A stretch of 64,000 nt of DNA, taken from the NCBI RefSeq assembly GCF_000196175.1, contig NC_005363.1, forward strand, positions 3,534,001 to 3,598,000, given 5' to 3'. Source of the stretch: Bdellovibrio bacteriovorus HD100 (lineage in GTDB: Bacteria; Bdellovibrionota; Bdellovibrionia; Bdellovibrionales; Bdellovibrionaceae). The translations under genes were made by a program, and so were the position numbers. Shown in pieces: positions 37,474 through 47,623 of the stretch (its first letter is position 1; each line of letters begins with the position of its first letter). The notes under the pieces were generated by a model. That model had not been told where the DNA came from, did no database searches, and worked only from the letters and a program-made list of their open reading frames with translations.

Positions 37474-37594
37474 CCGCCTACGCTAAAGCTTCGGCGTGAC
37501 ATCCTTCGCGTGCGTTCCACGATTCTACACTGCTAACTTAAAAGCCATAGGCCCGCCAAGCCGTAGCCCGGAGGGCGAAGGATGGTGGAGGCGG
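37474..37594. repeat. Nested inverted-repeat element next to the GIY-YIG remnant
   Basis: CCGCCT at 37474-37479 pairs with AGGCGG at 37589-37594; inside it CATCCTTCGC (37500-37509) pairs with GCGAAGGATG (37575-37584). A further imperfect hairpin is centred on TAAAGC. The structure is noncoding. It overlaps the 12-base repeat shared with the tmRNA 3' end. Repeats of this kind next to small GIY-YIG genes are likely mobile or structural elements; this is inference. Confidence 0.65.
37583..37594. repeat. 12-base direct repeat, possible far attachment site
   Basis: TGGTGGAGGCGG is identical, in the same orientation, to the 3' terminus of ssrA including CCA (47278-47289, read on the minus strand). 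Bases to its right are AT-rich like the island; bases to its left are like the host. Confidence 0.5.
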
Positions 37595-37790
37595 TGAAGC
37601 TCATCTAACTTATTGATTTTACTTACACCGTCTCCGTGATTAACTACAAAGTACTACATTGTTCATTAAAAGGTAATCCTAAGTTAAGATGTTTTATGTG
37701 GTAATAAAATTCTTAACCGAGAGAGTCCTTGACTCAATTCTTCCACAGGAATGGTCTAGTCCTGTAAACGCTTTTCTAAACTAGTCCAGC

Positions 37791-38780
37791 TTAGCTCTCT
37801 TCATATATTTTCTTTTTAAAAATACCATTAAGTAATTGAAAGTATTTTTTGGCCTCCTTACCGAATTGCGAAGGCATTGACTGAAAATAATGATCGTAAA
37901 GTTCAAAGTCAGCTTTTGATAGCTTTTGGCCAGCCATCACTCTCAAAAAAACGTCTCGTCTCTGATCAAATGAAATGGCTTTGAAATCAATTGCTAGAGT
38001 TATTTTTTGAATTGATTTATCTAGATGCTCCCAGACATCTTGGAGTAATTCAGAGTTAGTTCCCTCGATAAACCAACCAAAAATATCCTGTGACTCTTTT
38101 TCGGTTTCATCCATACCTTCACTTAAATTTTGCATTTTTCTTTGTGGATTAAACAGGTTCATTACAATCACATTGCCTTTGTGGCTTTTTTTGATCTTGG
38201 GAGAGCAGTTATTCATCAATATTCGAAGTTGATCAAAATTACCGTGTACCAGTGCACTTCGAATTTCGGCAGTCACACCTAAATTTAAGTTGAAACACCT
38301 TTTTGTTTTCATTTGAAAATCATCAATTATTGGACCTAAATCTCGGTATACAGTCATTTTTGATCGCTTCTGCTTGCTGTTCCTACGACCAATTGGCTCC
38401 TTAATCTCGACATCATACCTTGCTGCCAAGAGCTTCACTTTAAGCTCCCAGACAGCTGCTAAACCAGCAATTACAGTATACGCCCACATTCTATCGCCAA
38501 AGATTGGCTCGATAACTTCACTTATTGTTCTTTCTTTTGGAATTTTTCCGAAAGCACGACATGCCACCTTATCAACAGCTGAACTTAGAAAAACTTCATC
38601 TTCTTTGCTTTTCACTCTTAAAATCTTTTTCAGCTCATCGGATAGGATAATCCGAAATTCATCTTCAGGGCTCAAAACAGCTGAGAGATCAATACTTTCA
38701 TGATCTAGAATCAGGCGTATAGCTTTTAACTTACGCTTTGCAAGTTCAATTTTACTATTCAAATAAAACAGTATTTTCAT
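37791..38780 (-). CDS. HEPN-motif protein of the restriction-modification operon
   Basis: 329 residues, not recognised as a named family. A predicted mostly helical protein. Residues 171-185 read AEIRSALVHGNFDQL, matching the R-x4-H active-site motif (R174, H179) of HEPN-domain RNases, which often cut RNA in toxin-antitoxin and anti-phage systems. A basic patch (GRRNSKQKRSK) lies at 131-141. Its start lies 26 bases inside the peptidase gene, so translation is probably coupled. Last gene of the operon. The HEPN call rests on one motif and helical context. Confidence 0.6.
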   Translation of the reverse strand: MKILFYLNSKIELAKRKLKAIRLILDHESIDLSAVLSPEDEFRIILSDELKKILRVKSKEDEVFLSSAVDKVACRAFGKIPKERTISEVIEPIFGDRMWAYTVIAGLAAVWELKVKLLAARYDVEIKEPIGRRNSKQKRSKMTVYRDLGPIIDDFQMKTKRCFNLNLGVTAEIRSALVHGNFDQLRILMNNCSPKIKKSHKGNVIVMNLFNPQRKMQNLSEGMDETEKESQDIFGWFIEGTNSELLQDVWEHLDKSIQKITLAIDFKAISFDQRRDVFLRVMAGQKLSKADFELYDHYFQSMPSQFGKEAKKYFQLLNGIFKKKIYEES

Positions 38781-39462
38781 CTAATTTCTTTTTAAGGAGC
38801 TTATAATTGGGACATAAGGCCTTTAATGTGTCCTGGAAATCTTCATTGTGATCGAAGTGGACAAGGTGTGTTAGCTCGTGAAGAATCACATACTCAATAC
38901 ATTCTATATTTGCGCTTATTAGTTTAGAATTTAGGGTGATCAATCCACTTGCGGTGCATGATCCCCATCTGTTCTTCATTGGGTGTATTCTATATTTTGG
39001 TTTAACTGTTGTGTCAGTTATAGCCACAAATCTCTCTAGACACTTAGTCCAAATACTTTGAATTGCCTTCTCTAGCTGCTGATCTAACCATTCAGCCATA
39101 AATTGTGCGGCATATTGCTCGTCTTTCACGGTCAAGACCACCCTATTGTGCGCGAGCACAATGCCTTCAGGATCTCCAAACTCTACTTTAAGAAAATATT
39201 GTCGACCAAAAATATATACAGACTCACCAGACACAAACTTTCGAGATGGCTGTATTAGAAAATTTGCTTTCTTTTCTGCGATCTTTTCTAATATCCATGT
39301 TTTCTTTCCTCGAATAACATCTTCGATCTTAGAAATGGGAATGTATTCTGGCGCTGTCACTATGAGTGAACCTGAATGGTCAATTTCCAGACCAAGTGTC
39401 TTTCGTTTGGAATTTTTCAATTGATAGATAATTTCCTTATTATCCAACTCAATTCTATTCAT
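38755..39462 (-). CDS. YgjP-like (DUF45) zinc metallopeptidase
   Basis: 235 residues. The zinc motif HELTHLVHFDH lies in VILHELTHLVHFDHNEDF, preceded by RIHPMKNRWGSC, the marker pair of the YgjP/DUF45 branch related to SprT and M48 peptidases. Genes of this family often accompany Type I restriction systems. Its start shares one base with the hsdR stop and its end overlaps the next gene by 26 bases. Divergent in sequence from the other YgjP copy at 52.5 kb. Confidence 0.9.
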   Translation of the reverse strand: MNRIELDNKEIIYQLKNSKRKTLGLEIDHSGSLIVTAPEYIPISKIEDVIRGKKTWILEKIAEKKANFLIQPSRKFVSGESVYIFGRQYFLKVEFGDPEGIVLAHNRVVLTVKDEQYAAQFMAEWLDQQLEKAIQSIWTKCLERFVAITDTTVKPKYRIHPMKNRWGSCTASGLITLNSKLISANIECIEYVILHELTHLVHFDHNEDFQDTLKALCPNYKLLKKKLDENTVLFE

Positions 39463-42400
39463 TATCTATAGTCCAATCTCTTAGCGATCAATAATACGTT
39501 ATCCGTAACTTCTCGCATTTCTTCATCCGAAAATCGGACTGCAAAATTATCTTCTAGGTAGTAAAACACCTCTACCTCGATAGAGCCAATTATTTTCTTT
39601 TCAATATCTGTTCCAAGATGCCAGTCTTTAACTGCATGTTTCTTTACTATCTCATCTATCTTGAGAGCTAAATTCGTAATCTGGTCTGGCTCGAGCTTGG
39701 GAATCTTATTTTTTATTGTCTCTACAACTCGGTAATATGCCTTGGTAGTTTGTTGCCCAGACACTTCTGCAGGAACGTCTGAATCTAGATCTATTGTTAA
39801 TCTTGAAGCAACGTCTTCCATCATTGACAAATAATCAGCCTCTGAAATTCTACGGTCGATATACTTGAGATAGGTCTCTTCAATTACTTGAGAAAGATTT
39901 TTATAAAAAATTGGATCTTCATCAAACCTTTCAGAAATGTGACTAGAAGCCATACCTTTAATGATATCAGCCCTTGCTCCTTTTGATTTAGCTTTGGTTT
40001 CTTCCTCAAATTTCTCTTTATTGAAAATATCAAATCTTTCGACGATAAGCTTCGGTGGATCAGCCTTCAAGTTAACATCAACCAGCCGTCTTATATCGGC
40101 AATGTAATCCTCATAATTAATGCCGTCTGGGTATCTCTCTTTTATGACTGTTCTAAGATTTGCATAGAATTTATATTTTCGAGCATACTCATTCTTCTTC
40201 TGTTCAGGGGTTTCGTAAGTCCACTTTGCATATCCAAGAGCAAGCTTATAAACATTATGGAAATGACGAAACTTTTCGTAGAAGTCTTTGCGACGATTTT
40301 CATCTGCTAAATATCGTCCTATCTCCTCGTCATCTGTCATATTAGAAATTGAAGAAAAATGCTCATTTAAAGATTTGATTGCGGGATCAAGCTTTTTAAC
40401 TTCTTCAGATTTATCAAATAGAGTGTCCTTGATATCCTCTAGGTCAATGTCATTGCCTTCCATTTTTCTATAGAAATCTATGGCCTGGGTCATGTCGTCA
40501 AAGATGCCCCGATAATCAATTACTAGGCCTTCGGACTTTCTTGGATATAGTCGATTAACCCTTGCAATAGCCTGCAGTACATTGTGCTCTTTTAGTTTTT
40601 TATCGATATAAAGGACAGCATTTCTCGGGGCATCAAAGCCTGTAAGTAGTTTATCGACAACAATCAAAATTTCAGGCACATCGTCTTTCTTAAAATTATC
40701 GATAATGGTGTCTTGGTACTTCTTGGCACTACCATATCTTTTCATGCACTCATCCCAGAACTTTACAACCTCGGGCCTATCGTCATCTTCGATTGACTTA
40801 GAACCCTCCCTCATTTCAGGCGGTGAAATTACCAATGATGTTCTGATTCCAAATTCATCGAGATATCTCTTATAGGCTAGGGCTTCGCCTTTAGTATTGG
40901 TTGCAAGCTGACCTTTCATGAAGTCTTTCGTTGGCTCCCCCTCCTGACGAAAGTTCTCTCGGTAATGATTTTTAATATCAAGAGCAATCGCCCGTATTCG
41001 ATCGTCGGCCTTTAGAATTTCCTCTTCCATGCTAAAGCGCTTCTTTAAAGCTGCTTTTTGCTCCTCATTTAGGTCCTTAGTCACTCTATCGAACCATCGG
41101 TCCAACTGATCTTTGTTACCATTAAGTTCCCCCATCCGCCCTTCATAAACAATTGGGCAAACCGCACCATCCTCGAGCGCATTCTCCATGGTGTATTTGT
41201 GTATAAACTCACCAAATTGTACCTCGGTAGACTTAGCTACTGCCTCGTCCTTTTTTACTTTCCGAATGGGGGTGCCAGTGAAGGCAATAAATGCTGCTTT
41301 TTTAAATGTATTTTTCATCAGAGCATGAGTCTCTCCAAATTGAGATCGATGCCCCTCATCAACAAGTACAAATACATTTTCTGATTCATCAGTAACTTTA
41401 TGAGATTTTGCTACTGATTCAAACTTATCAATGATTGTAGTTAAAACACTATATCCTCTCGACTGGATTAACTCTGATAGATGTTCGCCAGACTTCGCCT
41501 GAACAGGAGCCTTTCCGCATTTCTCAAAAGTCTCTGTAATTTGTTCGTCAAGATCAACTCGATCTGTTACCACAATAATCTTTGCGTTCTTGCTTTTAAA
41601 TTCAACTGCATCCGCCAAAGACTTCGCCAGCATTACCATGGTATACGACTTGCCCGAGCCCGTTGTATGCCATATTACACCACCATCTCTTGCCCCATCT
41701 TCTTTAATGGTCTGGACTCTTTTTAAACTCTCTTTAACTGCAAAATATTGCTGGTGTCTTGGAGCAATTTTTGTGTCGTTTTCAAAAATAATAAAGTTTT
41801 GAATAATGTCAAGAAGGCGATCAGGCCGAAAGACGAAGTGAATACATTGATCCTGTATTGTTACTTCGCGAGACCCGCTATCCCAAATGACCTCCATTGC
41901 CCTTCTATCTGAGTATGCTCTAAATTCAAAAATCTTATCTTTAACTTTACTATCAATCTCCTGATTCACTAATTTTTTTAAAAGACTTTCTTTTGAGTCG
42001 TATTTGGATTCTTTCCAAATGGCCCAGAACTCTTCAGACGTTCCAATAGTGCCATATTTGGCACCCGTGCTCCCAGCGACTGAGCCGAGAATTTGCTGAA
42101 ACAAATAGAACTTTGTGATTCCAGTTCTGTTTTGATTTCTTAGTTGTTGTTCGATTCCTTTTTTTACCGCATCTGGCAACCCTGGCTTCTTACATTCGAT
42201 TGCAGCCAGAGGTAGTCCATTTATGAGGATCACAATGTCGGGAATATAATGTTGTTTTCGTCCATTTCTTTGAACAGAAAACTCTTCGGTGACTTGTAAA
42301 ATATTATTTTCGATATTTATGAAGTCAAAGAAATGCAAATGAGCACTCTTTTTGATCCCATTAAATAGAAAGCTCAAACCCTTTCCATTTAGAAGATGGT

Positions 42401-42689
42401 AGAAAAGATTTTTGTTATCAGTTCGCAGGTTAGTATTTGACCAATCAGTGAGTTCTTTAATTGCCTCATCGACTAGATTTTCAGGGATCGGAAGACGCTT
42501 ACCCTCATGCTCGAATGAGTTAATCCGCAAAAGCGCTTTCTTTAGCGTCGTCTTTAATAGTACAGTATCAGTATCACCACGCTCTAAAATGCAATCATTA
42601 GGAGTAAGATATTCATACCCTGAGTTGATCAGTAGTTTTACAGCTGGTATTTGTGAAGCTATTCGTTCCTTGAATAGTACTGAATCCAT
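39462..42689 (-). CDS. hsdR: Type I restriction enzyme HsdR subunit
   Basis: 1075 residues, the normal length. N-terminal PD-(D/E)xK nuclease: IPDIVILINGLPLAAIECKKPG. Motor: HTTGSGKSYTMVMLAKSL (Walker A), VLVDEGHRSQFG (DEGH box), FIAFTGTP, then LLTGFDAPRNAVLYID and ARVNRLYPRK. The C-terminal 250 residues are helical, for contact with the methylase core. Translocates DNA and cuts unmodified sites at a distance. Starts 14 bases after hsdS. Confidence 0.97.
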   Translation of the reverse strand: MDSVLFKERIASQIPAVKLLINSGYEYLTPNDCILERGDTDTVLLKTTLKKALLRINSFEHEGKRLPIPENLVDEAIKELTDWSNTNLRTDNKNLFYHLLNGKGLSFLFNGIKKSAHLHFFDFINIENNILQVTEEFSVQRNGRKQHYIPDIVILINGLPLAAIECKKPGLPDAVKKGIEQQLRNQNRTGITKFYLFQQILGSVAGSTGAKYGTIGTSEEFWAIWKESKYDSKESLLKKLVNQEIDSKVKDKIFEFRAYSDRRAMEVIWDSGSREVTIQDQCIHFVFRPDRLLDIIQNFIIFENDTKIAPRHQQYFAVKESLKRVQTIKEDGARDGGVIWHTTGSGKSYTMVMLAKSLADAVEFKSKNAKIIVVTDRVDLDEQITETFEKCGKAPVQAKSGEHLSELIQSRGYSVLTTIIDKFESVAKSHKVTDESENVFVLVDEGHRSQFGETHALMKNTFKKAAFIAFTGTPIRKVKKDEAVAKSTEVQFGEFIHKYTMENALEDGAVCPIVYEGRMGELNGNKDQLDRWFDRVTKDLNEEQKAALKKRFSMEEEILKADDRIRAIALDIKNHYRENFRQEGEPTKDFMKGQLATNTKGEALAYKRYLDEFGIRTSLVISPPEMREGSKSIEDDDRPEVVKFWDECMKRYGSAKKYQDTIIDNFKKDDVPEILIVVDKLLTGFDAPRNAVLYIDKKLKEHNVLQAIARVNRLYPRKSEGLVIDYRGIFDDMTQAIDFYRKMEGNDIDLEDIKDTLFDKSEEVKKLDPAIKSLNEHFSSISNMTDDEEIGRYLADENRRKDFYEKFRHFHNVYKLALGYAKWTYETPEQKKNEYARKYKFYANLRTVIKERYPDGINYEDYIADIRRLVDVNLKADPPKLIVERFDIFNKEKFEEETKAKSKGARADIIKGMASSHISERFDEDPIFYKNLSQVIEETYLKYIDRRISEADYLSMMEDVASRLTIDLDSDVPAEVSGQQTTKAYYRVVETIKNKIPKLEPDQITNLALKIDEIVKKHAVKDWHLGTDIEKKIIGSIEVEVFYYLEDNFAVRFSDEEMREVTDNVLLIAKRLDYR

Positions 42690-42703
42690 TTCTTACTCCA
42701 TGT

Positions 42704-43957
42704 TTATACTTTTACTCGAACTCTTCCAGTGAGAAGGTCTTGCATGAGGGCTTTTTTTAGACTCTGATATTTCGCCAATAAGACCTTTGTATTTTCTACT
42801 TTCAATTCCACTGAATCTAAAGCTTTAACTATAGACGACTGTTCAGCTAATGGTGGCACCTTGATAAGAAATTTTTCAACGTCATTCAAATTAAGCCCAG
42901 GCTGTGCAGAACCTTTGATATACTTTTGGATTTGCTTTAGGCCTGTGCCCTCTTGTAGGTAATAGTACAAGTACTTACCCAAAATCTTTTTTTCATCACA
43001 AGAAACCCTTGCAGTTGTCTGGGTAATATTTGCGCCGTTAAATCGCATTGGTACTACGTTCACTGCCCCAACTCCCGCACCTGCTATACAAATAACAACA
43101 TCACCAACATTCAATCTTGCCCGTTCAAATTTTTTTTCAATTTCAACAGAAACCTTAAAAACTTCGCCTGCTTCTGCCCAACCGCTTATATAGTCCTGAC
43201 CTCTGACAAGCAAAACACCTCTTTCATCGTATGAGCCTGGTTGTACAATTCCATAAGTAATTTTTCGACCCTTTAGAACTAAATCTGATAATACTTCGAT
43301 CGACCACGATTTTGGAACTGGACCCACTGCGCTTTCAATAGTTGTTGAATGACCAATCCCTTTTGATAAAAGATCTTGCATCATCCCTTTTTTAAGATTT
43401 TGGAGTTTTTCGATTTCAATTTCGGTCAGCTCAATGACTTTATCTACTGATGTGAGAAATTCTGCAATTTTCTTTTGCTCATCAATCTTTGGTGTATAGA
43501 CTTGAACCAGCTTCAAATCTTTCAAGTTTATAACTTGCTGAGCAGAACCTAAACTTCCACGCAAAATTTCTCCCTGCCCGAAATCAGACTCTAAAAAATA
43601 TTTCACATATGTATTTAAATATTTTGGAGCAAGGCGGATCAGAGCGGTTTGTCTTGCAATGTTCGCTCCTCTTAATGACCTCGGAACGACTGCAACTGTC
43701 CCAGGGTAACCAACTAAAGCGACTAATAGCTCACCACCATTCAAAACTGTTCTCTTATAGGACTCGGAGATATCTTTAGATATGGTCCTTAATTTATTTT
43801 CTTCGATTTTTCCTTTTGGAAAATCTCCCCCTCTAATAAATTTAACGCCATTTGGTGCTTCATCCCCAGGTTGAACCACTCCATAGGTAATATTAAAATT
43901 ATCTTCTAACAACTCATCTAAGATGTGTTTATCCCAATCAGCAGGAAAACTACTCAT
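42704..43957 (-). CDS. hsdS: Type I restriction specificity subunit HsdS
   Basis: 417 residues with two target recognition domains separated by conserved helical spacers. The first half ends PKIDEQKKIAEFLTSVDKVIELTEIEIEKLQNLKKGMMQDLL; the second repeats the layout (VPPLAEQSSIVKALDSVELKV to SLKKALMQDLL). Each domain opens with the related ITYGVVQPG / ITYGIVQPG text, so the two halves may be related in target. Recognises a bipartite DNA site. Overlaps hsdM by eight bases. Confidence 0.96.
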   Translation of the reverse strand: MSSFPADWDKHILDELLEDNFNITYGVVQPGDEAPNGVKFIRGGDFPKGKIEENKLRTISKDISESYKRTVLNGGELLVALVGYPGTVAVVPRSLRGANIARQTALIRLAPKYLNTYVKYFLESDFGQGEILRGSLGSAQQVINLKDLKLVQVYTPKIDEQKKIAEFLTSVDKVIELTEIEIEKLQNLKKGMMQDLLSKGIGHSTTIESAVGPVPKSWSIEVLSDLVLKGRKITYGIVQPGSYDERGVLLVRGQDYISGWAEAGEVFKVSVEIEKKFERARLNVGDVVICIAGAGVGAVNVVPMRFNGANITQTTARVSCDEKKILGKYLYYYLQEGTGLKQIQKYIKGSAQPGLNLNDVEKFLIKVPPLAEQSSIVKALDSVELKVENTKVLLAKYQSLKKALMQDLLTGRVRVKV

Positions 43958-45707
43958 AATTCAATACCTTAAGAATGGAGTTTATTTCCTTCTCTGCTTC
44001 AGTGATTTGAGATTCAATACCTCGTAAAGTCGTTGAATACTTGTCCCACCACCTCTCAAATTGAAGGATAATGGACTGGTCGACATCTCCCATTAATTCT
44101 CGAATCTTCTCTTTTGAATCTATTTCCTTTTTAAATACGTAATAATCTCTATCTCTTTCATCAAATATAATTGAAATATCAAACCCATCGATGATGTCTT
44201 GGATATAACCATCTTCGATTTCACGCCTGGGTATTCCACCATGAAGTATTGCCTTCACATCAAATATTTCAGGCGGTGGAGATGTATCAGCATATCGACG
44301 GATATTGAGATTAAACTCATTGTCCTCAATATCCCGAACGTCAACTACACGGGAAAAATGCTTCTCTTCGTGTCGATATAAATTCTCTGTCTTAAATTCT
44401 TTGAAATTTTTAACTATGTGATCAATGTCACTAACTCTAAGCTTATTTTGATTCTTACCCTCTTGGAATTCAAGATCTGCATTTATAAATAGAACTTTTC
44501 CTTTCCGCTCTACGGGTTTGTTCTTATTTAAAACCATAATCGCAGCAGGAATACCTGTTCCAAAAAATAGGTTAGTAGGTAAACCAATTACAGCCTCCAA
44601 AAGATCACCCTTTAGTACATCAGTGCCTTTAATTATACCTTCTCTAATTTTTTGCTCAGATGAACCTCTGAAGAGTACGCCGTGTGGCAATACAACTGCG
44701 GCCTTACCATTTTCATTTAATGAAGCGATCATGTGTTGAACGAATGCAAGTTCACCGTAGCTTTGCGGTGGTATGCCATAAGAAAATCTATCATAAGGAT
44801 CATTTTTAGCTTCTTCAATACCCCATTTTTCAAGACTAAATGGAGGATTTGCGACAACGATATCGAACTTCATTATTGTATCATCTTCAAGATGAAGCGG
44901 ACTTCTAATAGTGTCGCCGTTTTCTATCACTGATCGGTCAAATCCATGGAGAAACATATTCATTTTTGCTAAGGCCCAGGTAGCTCCAGTAATTTCCTGG
45001 CCATAGATTTGAAAATCATTTTCACCTTTTTTGGTCAACTGCTCTGCGCATCTAATTAATAGTGAACCTGAGCCACAGGTCGGATCATAGATTCTATTTC
45101 CCTTCTGTGGCGCAACGAGCTTTGCTAAAAGCTGAGATACTTCTGATGGAGTATAGAATTCGCCAGCTTTTTTCCCAGCACCTGCCGCAAAGTTAGCAAT
45201 CAAATACTCATAGGCATTACCAATCACATCAAGATCGCCAATATTTGACTTCCTCATGTTCAGCTTTTGATTGTTAAAGTCATCCAATAGATGCTTTAAT
45301 CTTGCGTTTCTGTCTTTAGTTTTCCCAAGATTCGCTTCTGAATTAAAACTTACATTTCTAAATACATTCTCAAGTTTTTCTTTATTCGCTTTTTCTATCT
45401 TCTCTAATGCAATATCGATTATCTCACCAATGTTCTTTTCTTCCTTTTGCGCATAGATATCTTTGAAGTGACATCCAACTGGCAATACGAAGTTTTCTTT
45501 TTCCAAAGCTCGCTTTATTCGGGACTCATTTCCGCCAAATTGTTTCTCATACTCTTCATATTTTTCTTCATAAGTATCTGAGAGGTATTTAATGAAAAGC
45601 ATTGTTAAGATATAGTTCTTATATTCACCCGCATCGACAACGCCTCTAAAAGTGTCACAGGCATCCCATAGGATTTTATTTATTTCGTCTTGTGTAACTT
45701 TGCTCAT
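43950..45707 (-). CDS. hsdM: Type I restriction modification subunit HsdM
   Basis: 585 residues. N-terminal HsdM domain to about 150, then N6-adenine methylase: FYTPSEVSQLLAKLV, YDPTCGSGSLLIRCAE (SAM site), and the catalytic NPPF in VVANPPFSLEKWG. Followed by AVVLPHGVLFRG. A C-terminal helical region mediates HsdS contact. Methylates adenine in the HsdS target. ATG overlaps the SIR2-like gene's stop by four bases. Confidence 0.97.
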   Translation of the reverse strand: MSKVTQDEINKILWDACDTFRGVVDAGEYKNYILTMLFIKYLSDTYEEKYEEYEKQFGGNESRIKRALEKENFVLPVGCHFKDIYAQKEEKNIGEIIDIALEKIEKANKEKLENVFRNVSFNSEANLGKTKDRNARLKHLLDDFNNQKLNMRKSNIGDLDVIGNAYEYLIANFAAGAGKKAGEFYTPSEVSQLLAKLVAPQKGNRIYDPTCGSGSLLIRCAEQLTKKGENDFQIYGQEITGATWALAKMNMFLHGFDRSVIENGDTIRSPLHLEDDTIMKFDIVVANPPFSLEKWGIEEAKNDPYDRFSYGIPPQSYGELAFVQHMIASLNENGKAAVVLPHGVLFRGSSEQKIREGIIKGTDVLKGDLLEAVIGLPTNLFFGTGIPAAIMVLNKNKPVERKGKVLFINADLEFQEGKNQNKLRVSDIDHIVKNFKEFKTENLYRHEEKHFSRVVDVRDIEDNEFNLNIRRYADTSPPPEIFDVKAILHGGIPRREIEDGYIQDIIDGFDISIIFDERDRDYYVFKKEIDSKEKIRELMGDVDQSIILQFERWWDKYSTTLRGIESQITEAEKEINSILKVLNYE

Positions 45708-46798
45708 AAAATTCCTTCAAATTTCAATTTTATATAATTTAAAATTAGTTCAACTTGTTCGTATCTTTCAGCTTCAAACCAAATGGGGAAAATATTGGCC
45801 TCGACAAGCTCTTTTTCGCGTTGATTTCTTTTTGCTCTATCTTCTGGCTTCTGAAGAATAGCAAAATGTGTCGTAGTCATACCAAAATCTGAATTAATTT
45901 TTTTTAGTGTTTGAAAAGTACGGTCAGAAGTTAGGCTGCATCCCACAAACATCAAACTAAATGACTCAGTACAGGCTCTCAAAAATTTTGGCAAAACTCT
46001 TTCAAGATTTACAGAACCATTTTCGCCATATTTTGAGTCGTACTCATTCTTTGTGAGAACTCGATTAGCAGTCCCTTCAATTGTGCCATGGATCTTATAG
46101 ATAAAATTGTTGCCTTTTTTAACATGAGTCATCCAGTCGTCAGTTATTGCATCCAACGGCCTTGATTTTAATGCGTAAGTTTTTTCCAACACTTCATCAA
46201 AATTTGTCGTTATTACTCCATTAGTGAATATTGTTGGTAAATATTTAATTGGACCAACCACAGACTGTCTCAGTGTGAAAGAATGTTTGTATCGTTCGTT
46301 AAAACGAGGTCCAGTCATCTGTTCTAGTAGCAAATCTGCACAGTTCTCATAGTGCCCTTTACTTATAAGACTTTTGAACATTTCTAGATCTAATTCATTT
46401 TCTGTTGCTTGATCATTTAGAAATGAAGTCCATGTCGGCATTCCACAACTAACAGTCAAACCAGCTCCGACGAAGGGGACAACTCGTTTATTTTTTACTA
46501 ATTGTATTAGGTCGTTTATTCGATCTTCGTTAGTTTCCAATGATAGTATTTCATTGAACCTTTCTTCTAACGACATCTTCATCTGTTGTTTGTATTCGTC
46601 ATTATAGAAGTAGAAAAGGATCTGACTCGGCTTAACTTTATTCCCAGCAATGTTAATTTCGCCATATTCAGTAATATAAGTTTCATCAAACTGCGAATTA
46701 AAATCTGCGTGGCGATCATACAGATGTGATTTAAGTTGAGTTGCTAAATGCTCAAATTTTTCTAGTGCTATCTGTTCATTAAATTCATCGCTACTCAC
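45704..46798 (-). CDS. SIR2-like domain protein in the RM operon
   Basis: About 364 residues from a GTG at 46798 (GGAGG before it), overlapping the HTH gene stop; ATG at 46810 or 46891 are alternatives. Residues about 1-95 form an unrecognised N-terminal region. The rest is SIR2-like: VVPFVGAGLTVSCGMPTW (NAD site), GVITTNFDEVLE and YKIHGTIEG with the catalytic histidine, then FVGCSLTSDRTF. SIR2 domains in anti-phage systems deplete NAD. Placement between HTH and hsdM, with a four-base overlap, suggests a built-in effector. Confidence 0.85.
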   Translation of the reverse strand: MSSDEFNEQIALEKFEHLATQLKSHLYDRHADFNSQFDETYITEYGEINIAGNKVKPSQILFYFYNDEYKQQMKMSLEERFNEILSLETNEDRINDLIQLVKNKRVVPFVGAGLTVSCGMPTWTSFLNDQATENELDLEMFKSLISKGHYENCADLLLEQMTGPRFNERYKHSFTLRQSVVGPIKYLPTIFTNGVITTNFDEVLEKTYALKSRPLDAITDDWMTHVKKGNNFIYKIHGTIEGTANRVLTKNEYDSKYGENGSVNLERVLPKFLRACTESFSLMFVGCSLTSDRTFQTLKKINSDFGMTTTHFAILQKPEDRAKRNQREKELVEANIFPIWFEAERYEQVELILNYIKLKFEGIL

Positions 46799-46973
46799 TA
46801 GCCCCTCCATTTTTGACCCAGGCATCCACTTCGCTAACTTTAAACTTCCACTGCTTCCCAACTTTATGAGCAGGGATTTTTCCTCTCTCAAGCCAGCGAT
46901 AAACTGTCTCTTTTGAAATACCTAAATGGGCAGCAATTTCGACCACTGAAAGCCATTTTTCAGGTTGTTCCAC
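46791..46973 (-). CDS. Excisionase-family helix-turn-helix protein
   Basis: 60 residues. WLSVVEIAAHLGISKETVYRWLERGKIPAHKVGKQWKFKVSEVDAWVKN is the MerR/excisionase-like HTH_17 fold. Proteins of this type often head Type I restriction operons and are likely regulators, though related ones help excise integrated elements. First gene of the operon; its stop overlaps the SIR2-like gene's start. The 304-base gap upstream to ssrA is AT-rich and holds the promoter and an ssrA terminator. Confidence 0.88.
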   Translation of the reverse strand: MEQPEKWLSVVEIAAHLGISKETVYRWLERGKIPAHKVGKQWKFKVSEVDAWVKNGGASE

Positions 46974-47241
46974 TAAACCTCTCCAAATTTAAATTGTGTT
47001 TAATTATGACCTTAAGTTGTAGCCCATGACAAACAATGACTATAAAATACCAAGACTTATATCGGTAAGTTTAAATCTAATTTAGAATCAAAATAGAAAT
47101 GTAGTTACTGAGAAACTTGTAGTTCATATAAAACTACAAATGCATGCAATTCGAGAAATTTCGGGTAATTTCCGCTAATGTCTATCAAATACCTAGATCA
47201 AGCTTCTTCTTCGTATGTATCTGTTTATATTAAAAAAATAG

Positions 47242-47259
47242 AAAAAGCCCACAAGGGGC
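47242..47259 (-). terminator. Probable ssrA terminator
   Basis: On the minus strand GCCC-CTTGT-GGGC is followed by TTTTTC, about 20 bases beyond the tmRNA 3' end. The stem is short. It sits on the island side of the 12-base repeat. Confidence 0.6.
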
Positions 47260-47277
47260 AGTTCTATATTCGAAATT

Positions 47278-47623
47278 TGGTGGAGGCGGGGGGAATTGAA
47301 CCCCCGTCCGCAAATGATCCACGATAAGGCGCTACATACTTAGTCAGTGTTTTAGATTGGTCCTCGGGCTTCCACAGACAAAATCCCTAAGACCTCTCCC
47401 CCAGTAAATTTAAGCATGTCTGCTGGAGAAAACCCAACACGCCGAGGTCCCTAAATGACGATCAATCCAAGTGCGGAACCACCACAAGGTTGATCGTGCT
47501 GCTTAATTAAGCTGCAAGTGCGTAATCGTTGCCAATTACAAAGTGGACGTTTTTAACGAGGTCCTCATCCGCCCCGGTATGCTCCTTATGCTTCAGCACC
47601 CACGTCGAAGCCAGTACGCCCCC
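47278..47623 (-). ncRNA. ssrA: tmRNA (one-piece)
   Basis: 346 bases including CCA. The 5' end GGGGGCGTACTGGCTTCGACG and the 3' end GGGGTTCAATTCCCCCCGCC then TCCACCA pair as a seven-base acceptor stem (GGGGGCG with CGCCTCC). The tag reading frame ends GNDYALAA before TAATTAA; the resume codon lies upstream in the stretch encoding VHFVIGNDYALAA and is not certain. It rescues stalled ribosomes. Its 3' terminus is the repeat at the island edge. Confidence 0.95.

Follow-up and report, generated by a model that had tools for sequence, protein, structure and literature searches.

The Type I restriction operon of Bdellovibrio bacteriovorus HD100 examined here ends in a gene that a sequence-only reading had put forward as a candidate HEPN RNase effector of a kind not described with Type I systems. 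The locus thus raises the question of whether the protein is an RNase of this superfamily, and of how closely its role is tied to the restriction system and to the peptidase encoded directly upstream. The gene lies in a window of 64,000 nucleotides (contig NC_005363.1, positions 3,534,001 to 3,598,000), which is the whole stretch of DNA that was analysed and to which all coordinates refer.

The gene, its operon and the tmRNA island

The operon runs from a SIR2-like gene through hsdM, hsdS and hsdR to a YgjP-like peptidase gene and the HEPN-signature gene as the last cistron (Table 1), with overlaps of 4 (SIR2/hsdM), 8, 1 and 26 bases and a single gap of 14. The 26-base overlap between the peptidase and HEPN-signature reading frames is exact, as the sequence-only reading had it, and both the overlap and the ATG start are credible because the N-termini of the homologues described below (MKILFYL.., MLLKKYF.., MRLLRNL.., MLLCRLI..) have a comparable hydrophobic-basic character to that of the window protein. 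The other features noted from the letters are likewise present: R174-SALV-H179 occurs in the 329-aa frame, the AlphaFold2 model is mostly helical, and the basic patch is real (RRNSKQKRSK, residues ~132-141) and lies in the loop preceding the motif-bearing helix. No terminator distinguishable from shuffled sequence was detected 3' of the gene. At the other end of the operon, approximately 120 N-terminal residues of the SIR2-like protein lie outside the matched domain, and a role for this protein as a second abortive effector is possible. In literature searches that paired YgjP peptidases with Type I systems, and Bdellovibrio with Type I restriction or with islands at tmRNA genes, no title or abstract concerned this locus.

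The whole operon forms a 9.7-kb island that occupies the 3' end of the tmRNA gene, as indicated by the direct repeat at its two boundaries, its low GC content and an empty site in a relative of the same genus (G009), where the flank ending at 37594 is joined directly to the flank starting at 47278 with a single copy of the repeat. The island encodes no integrase, and the HEPN-signature gene is its outermost gene. In another relative (G002, L075:5565-8818), the tmRNA 3' end is followed by two genes in a Hachiman-like arrangement, one for a helicase resembling HamB (PADLOC E 1e-69) and one that matches HamA weakly, and a pair of similar appearance is found near the tmRNA gene of a third (G023, L076:2207-4538).

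Table 1. Positions of the operon genes, signature codons and island boundaries within the window
Feature	Position	Strand	Evidence or remark
12-bp direct repeat TGGTGGAGGCGG, HEPN-side boundary	37583..37594	.	Repeat search; empty site in G009
Island SIR2-hsdM-hsdS-hsdR-YgjP-HEPN, 9.7 kb	37595..47277	-	GC ~0.35-0.41 vs 0.44-0.51 outside
HEPN-signature protein gene	37791..38780	-	329 aa from ATG; E112-x3-K116, R174-S-x3-H179; core ~86-268
RSALVH codons (R174-SALV-H179)	38244..38261	-	R and H invariant in 8 homologues; computed from ORF start 38780
E112-LKV-K116 codons, acidic E-x3-[KR] motif of earlier helix	38433..38447	-	Kept in 8/8 homologues
YgjP-like zinc metallopeptidase, HELTH motif	38755..39462	-	PF01863, E 3e-49; overlaps HEPN-signature gene
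HsdR, Type I restriction subunit, 1075 aa	39462..42689	-	Profile matches
HsdS, specificity subunit, 417 aa	42704..43957	-	Profile matches
HsdM, DNA methylase subunit, 585 aa	43950..45707	-	Profile matches
SIR2-like protein, 395 aa, first gene of operon	45704..46891	-	PF13289, E 3e-29; ThsA-like in PADLOC
12-bp direct repeat TGGTGGAGGCGG, tmRNA-side boundary	47278..47289	.	tmRNA 3' end, reverse complement
tmRNA gene (ssrA), integration site of island	47278..47623	-	Rfam RF00023, 184.9 bits

Conservation of the signature and the HEPN assignment

The R-x4-6-H motif is stated to be the most conserved feature of the HEPN superfamily (PMC3710099), in keeping with the use that the sequence-only reading had made of it. 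The bare R174-x4-H179 is no evidence by itself, because 59% of shuffles of the protein contain at least one R-x4-6-H, and a second, unconserved copy is present at R22. Whole-genome searches of relatives identified seven homologues at 19-38% identity, each in a separate further genome of the phylum, such that the eight homologues referred to throughout are the window protein and these seven relatives, in eight genera, and the family count is 8 of the 389 genomes of the searched phylum with the genome of the window included. One homologue (L009) is broken by a frame change and another (L021) is reduced to the core. The positions invariant in the eight-sequence alignment are G106, E112, R174, H179 and W236, along with the start methionine. 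The core has only five invariant columns, two of which are the arginine and histidine of the motif, kept in all eight sequences. The residue after the arginine is polar in every member (S, S, S, D, D, D, H, D) and E-x3-K/R is present at 112-116 in all eight, as E112-x3-K116 in the window protein. When the columns of the core alignment were shuffled, 1.4% of trials produced an invariant R-x4-6-H, and 0.02% an invariant R-x4-6-H combined with an upstream invariant E-x3-[KR]. Searches of plasmids, phages and viral contigs with the window protein and a peptide-pattern search of 84,980 genomes recovered no relatives, nor did plasmid searches with three of the homologues as queries. Judged from these sequence comparisons, the protein belongs to a small uncatalogued family that is thinly spread in the searched phylum.

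A polar residue after the arginine and a second acidic residue in helix 2, typically within E-x3-[KR], are also HEPN hallmarks, and the characteristic layout has helices 2 and 3 separated by an insert, with the R-x4-6-H at the end of helix 3 (PMC3710099). The AlphaFold2 model computed from the eight-sequence alignment has a mean pLDDT of 78.5 and a pTM of 0.65 (80.8 and 0.75 for the core alone). A predicted helix at 86-121 carries E112, with the blocks at 101-120 reaching a pLDDT of 94-96, and a confidently predicted helix at 167-178 carries R174 and has H179 at its very end; at the level of secondary structure an insert with the basic stretch (122-147) lies between the two, and a later helix is predicted at 245-268. 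The model thus resembles the published layout in having the motif at a helix end and an insert before the motif helix (PMC3710099).

Comparisons with known families and folds were less informative. For the window protein, Pfam, NCBIfam and PADLOC returned no meaningful family match and none as HEPN, and scans of all eight members against PHROGs and PADLOC gave nothing usable. Foldseek returned no match at E 0.001 against the PDB and viral models for either the full model or the core, and VIA-align returned helical arrangements only (Z <= 6.2), with HEPN structures not above the background of helical bundles for either query. Residues 667-765 of Cas13bt3 (7vti) aligned with a Z of 4.0 and an rmsd of 4.0 over 98 positions, tied with unrelated bundles; from general knowledge of Cas13 proteins, this end of the structure presumably holds a HEPN domain. 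Of the checks that the sequence-only reading had proposed, the profile search yielded weak, sub-threshold matches of two homologues to a single family, DUF3644, and the structure comparison stayed within the helical-bundle background. The candidacy of the protein as a HEPN RNase was strengthened by the invariant signature and its position in the predicted helices, but profile and fold comparisons did not close the case.

DUF3644 (PF12358; PADLOC candidate PDC-S19) is, by sequence, the nearest HEPN-type family to the window protein, below the cut-off. The window protein is without a match to it in Pfam, and the scores of two homologues, 16.0 and 18.5 bits, fall short of the cut-off of 27.6, as do the best E-values among homologues (0.0016 at full length and 0.00089 for the core). 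Five of the eight members align to a DUF3644 profile built here with both R-x4-H motifs in register and with low scores, and a profile-profile comparison assigns a probability of ~1% with the motifs nonetheless aligned. DUF3644 genes resemble the present family in being mobile and mostly solo, and sometimes occur in Type I operons (L058/L077); they differ in having their own R-x4-H signature, RHEIEH, which in the nine sequences compared is not preceded by an invariant E-x3-[KR]. Membership in DUF3644 was rejected on the missing Pfam match and the homologue scores under the gathering cut-off, and the protein is filed on its sequence signature as HEPN-type and not as a DUF3644 member.

Two alternatives bear on this assignment. 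The protein could be a helical protein of another fold that conserves its arginine and histidine for another reason, which would agree with the generic bundles returned by the fold searches and with the missing family model; the coincidence of three separate hallmarks at the shuffle frequency given above, the motif at a predicted helix end as expected and the in-register DUF3644 alignments, weak as they are, make this distinctly unlikely. The protein could instead have the HEPN fold and act as a non-catalytic RNA-binding or structural protein, as in some HEPN families that have lost catalysis and with it the R-x4-6-H (PMC3710099). Such a loss would be hard to reconcile with an arginine, a histidine and an acidic residue that are among the few invariant columns of eight remote homologues, and this alternative is considered very unlikely. 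The reading of the protein as a HEPN-type RNase is supported because the signature is conserved and the motif occupies the appropriate position in the predicted helices.

Neighbourhoods and the tie to restriction and peptidase

The view that such an effector was new to Type I systems proved wrong. Restriction-modification loci have links to at least 16 HEPN clades, the anticodon nuclease PrrC, a HEPN protein, is embedded with the type Ic system PrrI, and DUF3644 overlaps the published HEPN family EC042_2821, which is found in restriction-modification operons (PMC3710099). Within the same phylum, a Type I operon of genome G049 that also contains hsdS and an hsdR-like gene has a DUF3644 gene directly after hsdM and overlapping it. 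The window protein shares with the restriction-linked HEPN RNases the R-x4-H at a helix end, the polar residue after the arginine, the upstream E-x3-[KR], a similar predicted layout of the helical core and a gene inside a restriction-modification operon, but it matches no existing family profile, and its family has, beyond the motif, a conserved region around W236 and, at the N-terminus, a helical region of ~85 residues. Like PrrC with PrrI, it is a HEPN-type nuclease candidate encoded with hsdMSR, with the same likely role as a back-up to restriction. PrrC, however, has a controlling N-terminal ABC-type ATPase, for which the 329-aa window protein shows no Pfam match, and an identity as a PrrC-type anticodon nuclease was rejected on this ground. 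In the G049 operon, the DUF3644 gene is followed by a gene for a 243-aa protein without a Pfam match, apparently in the same operon (L077:4105-5823).

The neighbourhoods of the homologues are diverse, and the link of the family to restriction is not conserved. None of the seven loci has an hsd or YgjP gene near the homologue in the stretches seen (some on short contigs, one of 3.8 kb and others of 12-13 kb), and no conserved partner gene, whether antitoxin, peptidase or hsd, was found in these neighbourhoods. As judged from the translations of neighbouring genes and some profile matches, one homologue lies among transfer genes and an integrase (L007) and another among plasmid-type replication and partition genes (L020); others lie near a reverse transcriptase gene of the retron type, PADLOC class RT_VI (L019), and near a RES-domain gene (L008), and neighbour translations place the remainder among chromosomal genes. 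The candidate role as an obligatory component of Type I restriction was rejected on this lack of conserved co-occurrence in the stretches seen. Since none of the seven homologues adjoins hsd or peptidase genes, the HEPN-signature gene looks like independent, swappable and frequently mobile cargo that the operon acquired at its end. In the L019 locus (L019:6885-9838), the homologue shares its strand with an HTH-like gene and the class VI retron-type reverse transcriptase, which lie ~740 bases downstream of it.

The peptidase has associations of its own. YgjP-like metallopeptidase genes directly follow hsdR in four Type I operons of the phylum (38755-39462 in the window, L052:7330-8046, L054:1380-2132 and L056:6769-7485), and the YgjP-like metallopeptidase is a recurrent, unexplained partner of Type I restriction. 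The three other genomes differ in what lies beyond it: one has a gene for a small protein predicted to have a membrane segment, one has no further gene in the operon, and one has a gene for a 308-aa protein without a Pfam match. The link between peptidase and RNase suggested by the sequence-only reading finds no support in co-occurrence.

Proposed role and control

The explanation favoured here, which is considered probable with an appreciable share of doubt, is that the gene encodes a HEPN-type, metal-independent RNase that serves as an abortive-infection or second-line toxin, carried as exchangeable cargo in the last cistron of the Type I operon in the tmRNA island. This reading also draws on the context of a complete Type I operon with a SIR2 gene in first position, in an island at a site that holds other defence cargo in a close relative. 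By analogy with known HEPN families, the active site would consist of R174 and H179 at the helix end, assisted by E112 on the earlier helix, and would probably be completed by dimerisation. The gene would be co-transcribed and translated with the restriction operon at whose end it landed, and the protein would remain silent during normal growth until a phage defeats restriction or otherwise sets it off, whereupon cleavage of cellular or phage RNA would stop the cell before the phage matures.

How such a toxin might be controlled admits further possibilities. The restriction complex may hold the RNase inactive and free it when inhibited or damaged, as with PrrC and PrrI, a mode of action that has also been proposed for restriction-linked HEPN domains (PMC3710099) and that would suit co-transcription, the compact hsd operon with its 26-base overlap and the DUF3644 gene directly after hsdM in G049. 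The window protein is without a PrrC-like ATPase domain, however, and most members of the family must be controlled without hsd because none of the seven homologues adjoins hsd genes in the stretches seen, so that PrrC-like control is judged unlikely while retaining some weight. Control by the upstream YgjP peptidase, for example through an activating cleavage in a protease-plus-RNase module, would draw on the overlap of the adjacent genes in this genome and on the HELTH zinc motif kept in the peptidase; it is highly improbable given that no homologue has a YgjP neighbour and that the peptidase of the three other genomes is followed by a different gene each time. A fully coupled and layered device, in which restriction would be backed by a SIR2-like NAD-consuming killer and a HEPN RNase killer, encoded by the first and last genes of the operon, and the metallopeptidase would release the RNase once the restriction complex fails, receives very little credence here. 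For the favoured reading of an exchangeable HEPN-type toxin, PrrC-like release or peptidase control is possible, and the contexts of the family demand neither.

The uncatalogued HEPN-signature family can be added to the list of likely phage-defence RNases, and, since HEPN proteins are already well known from the vicinity of restriction systems, it represents a further instance of an established kind of defence. In this genus, the tmRNA site appears to be a defence hotspot and is a place to seek further defence genes; the island contents found there differ between close relatives.
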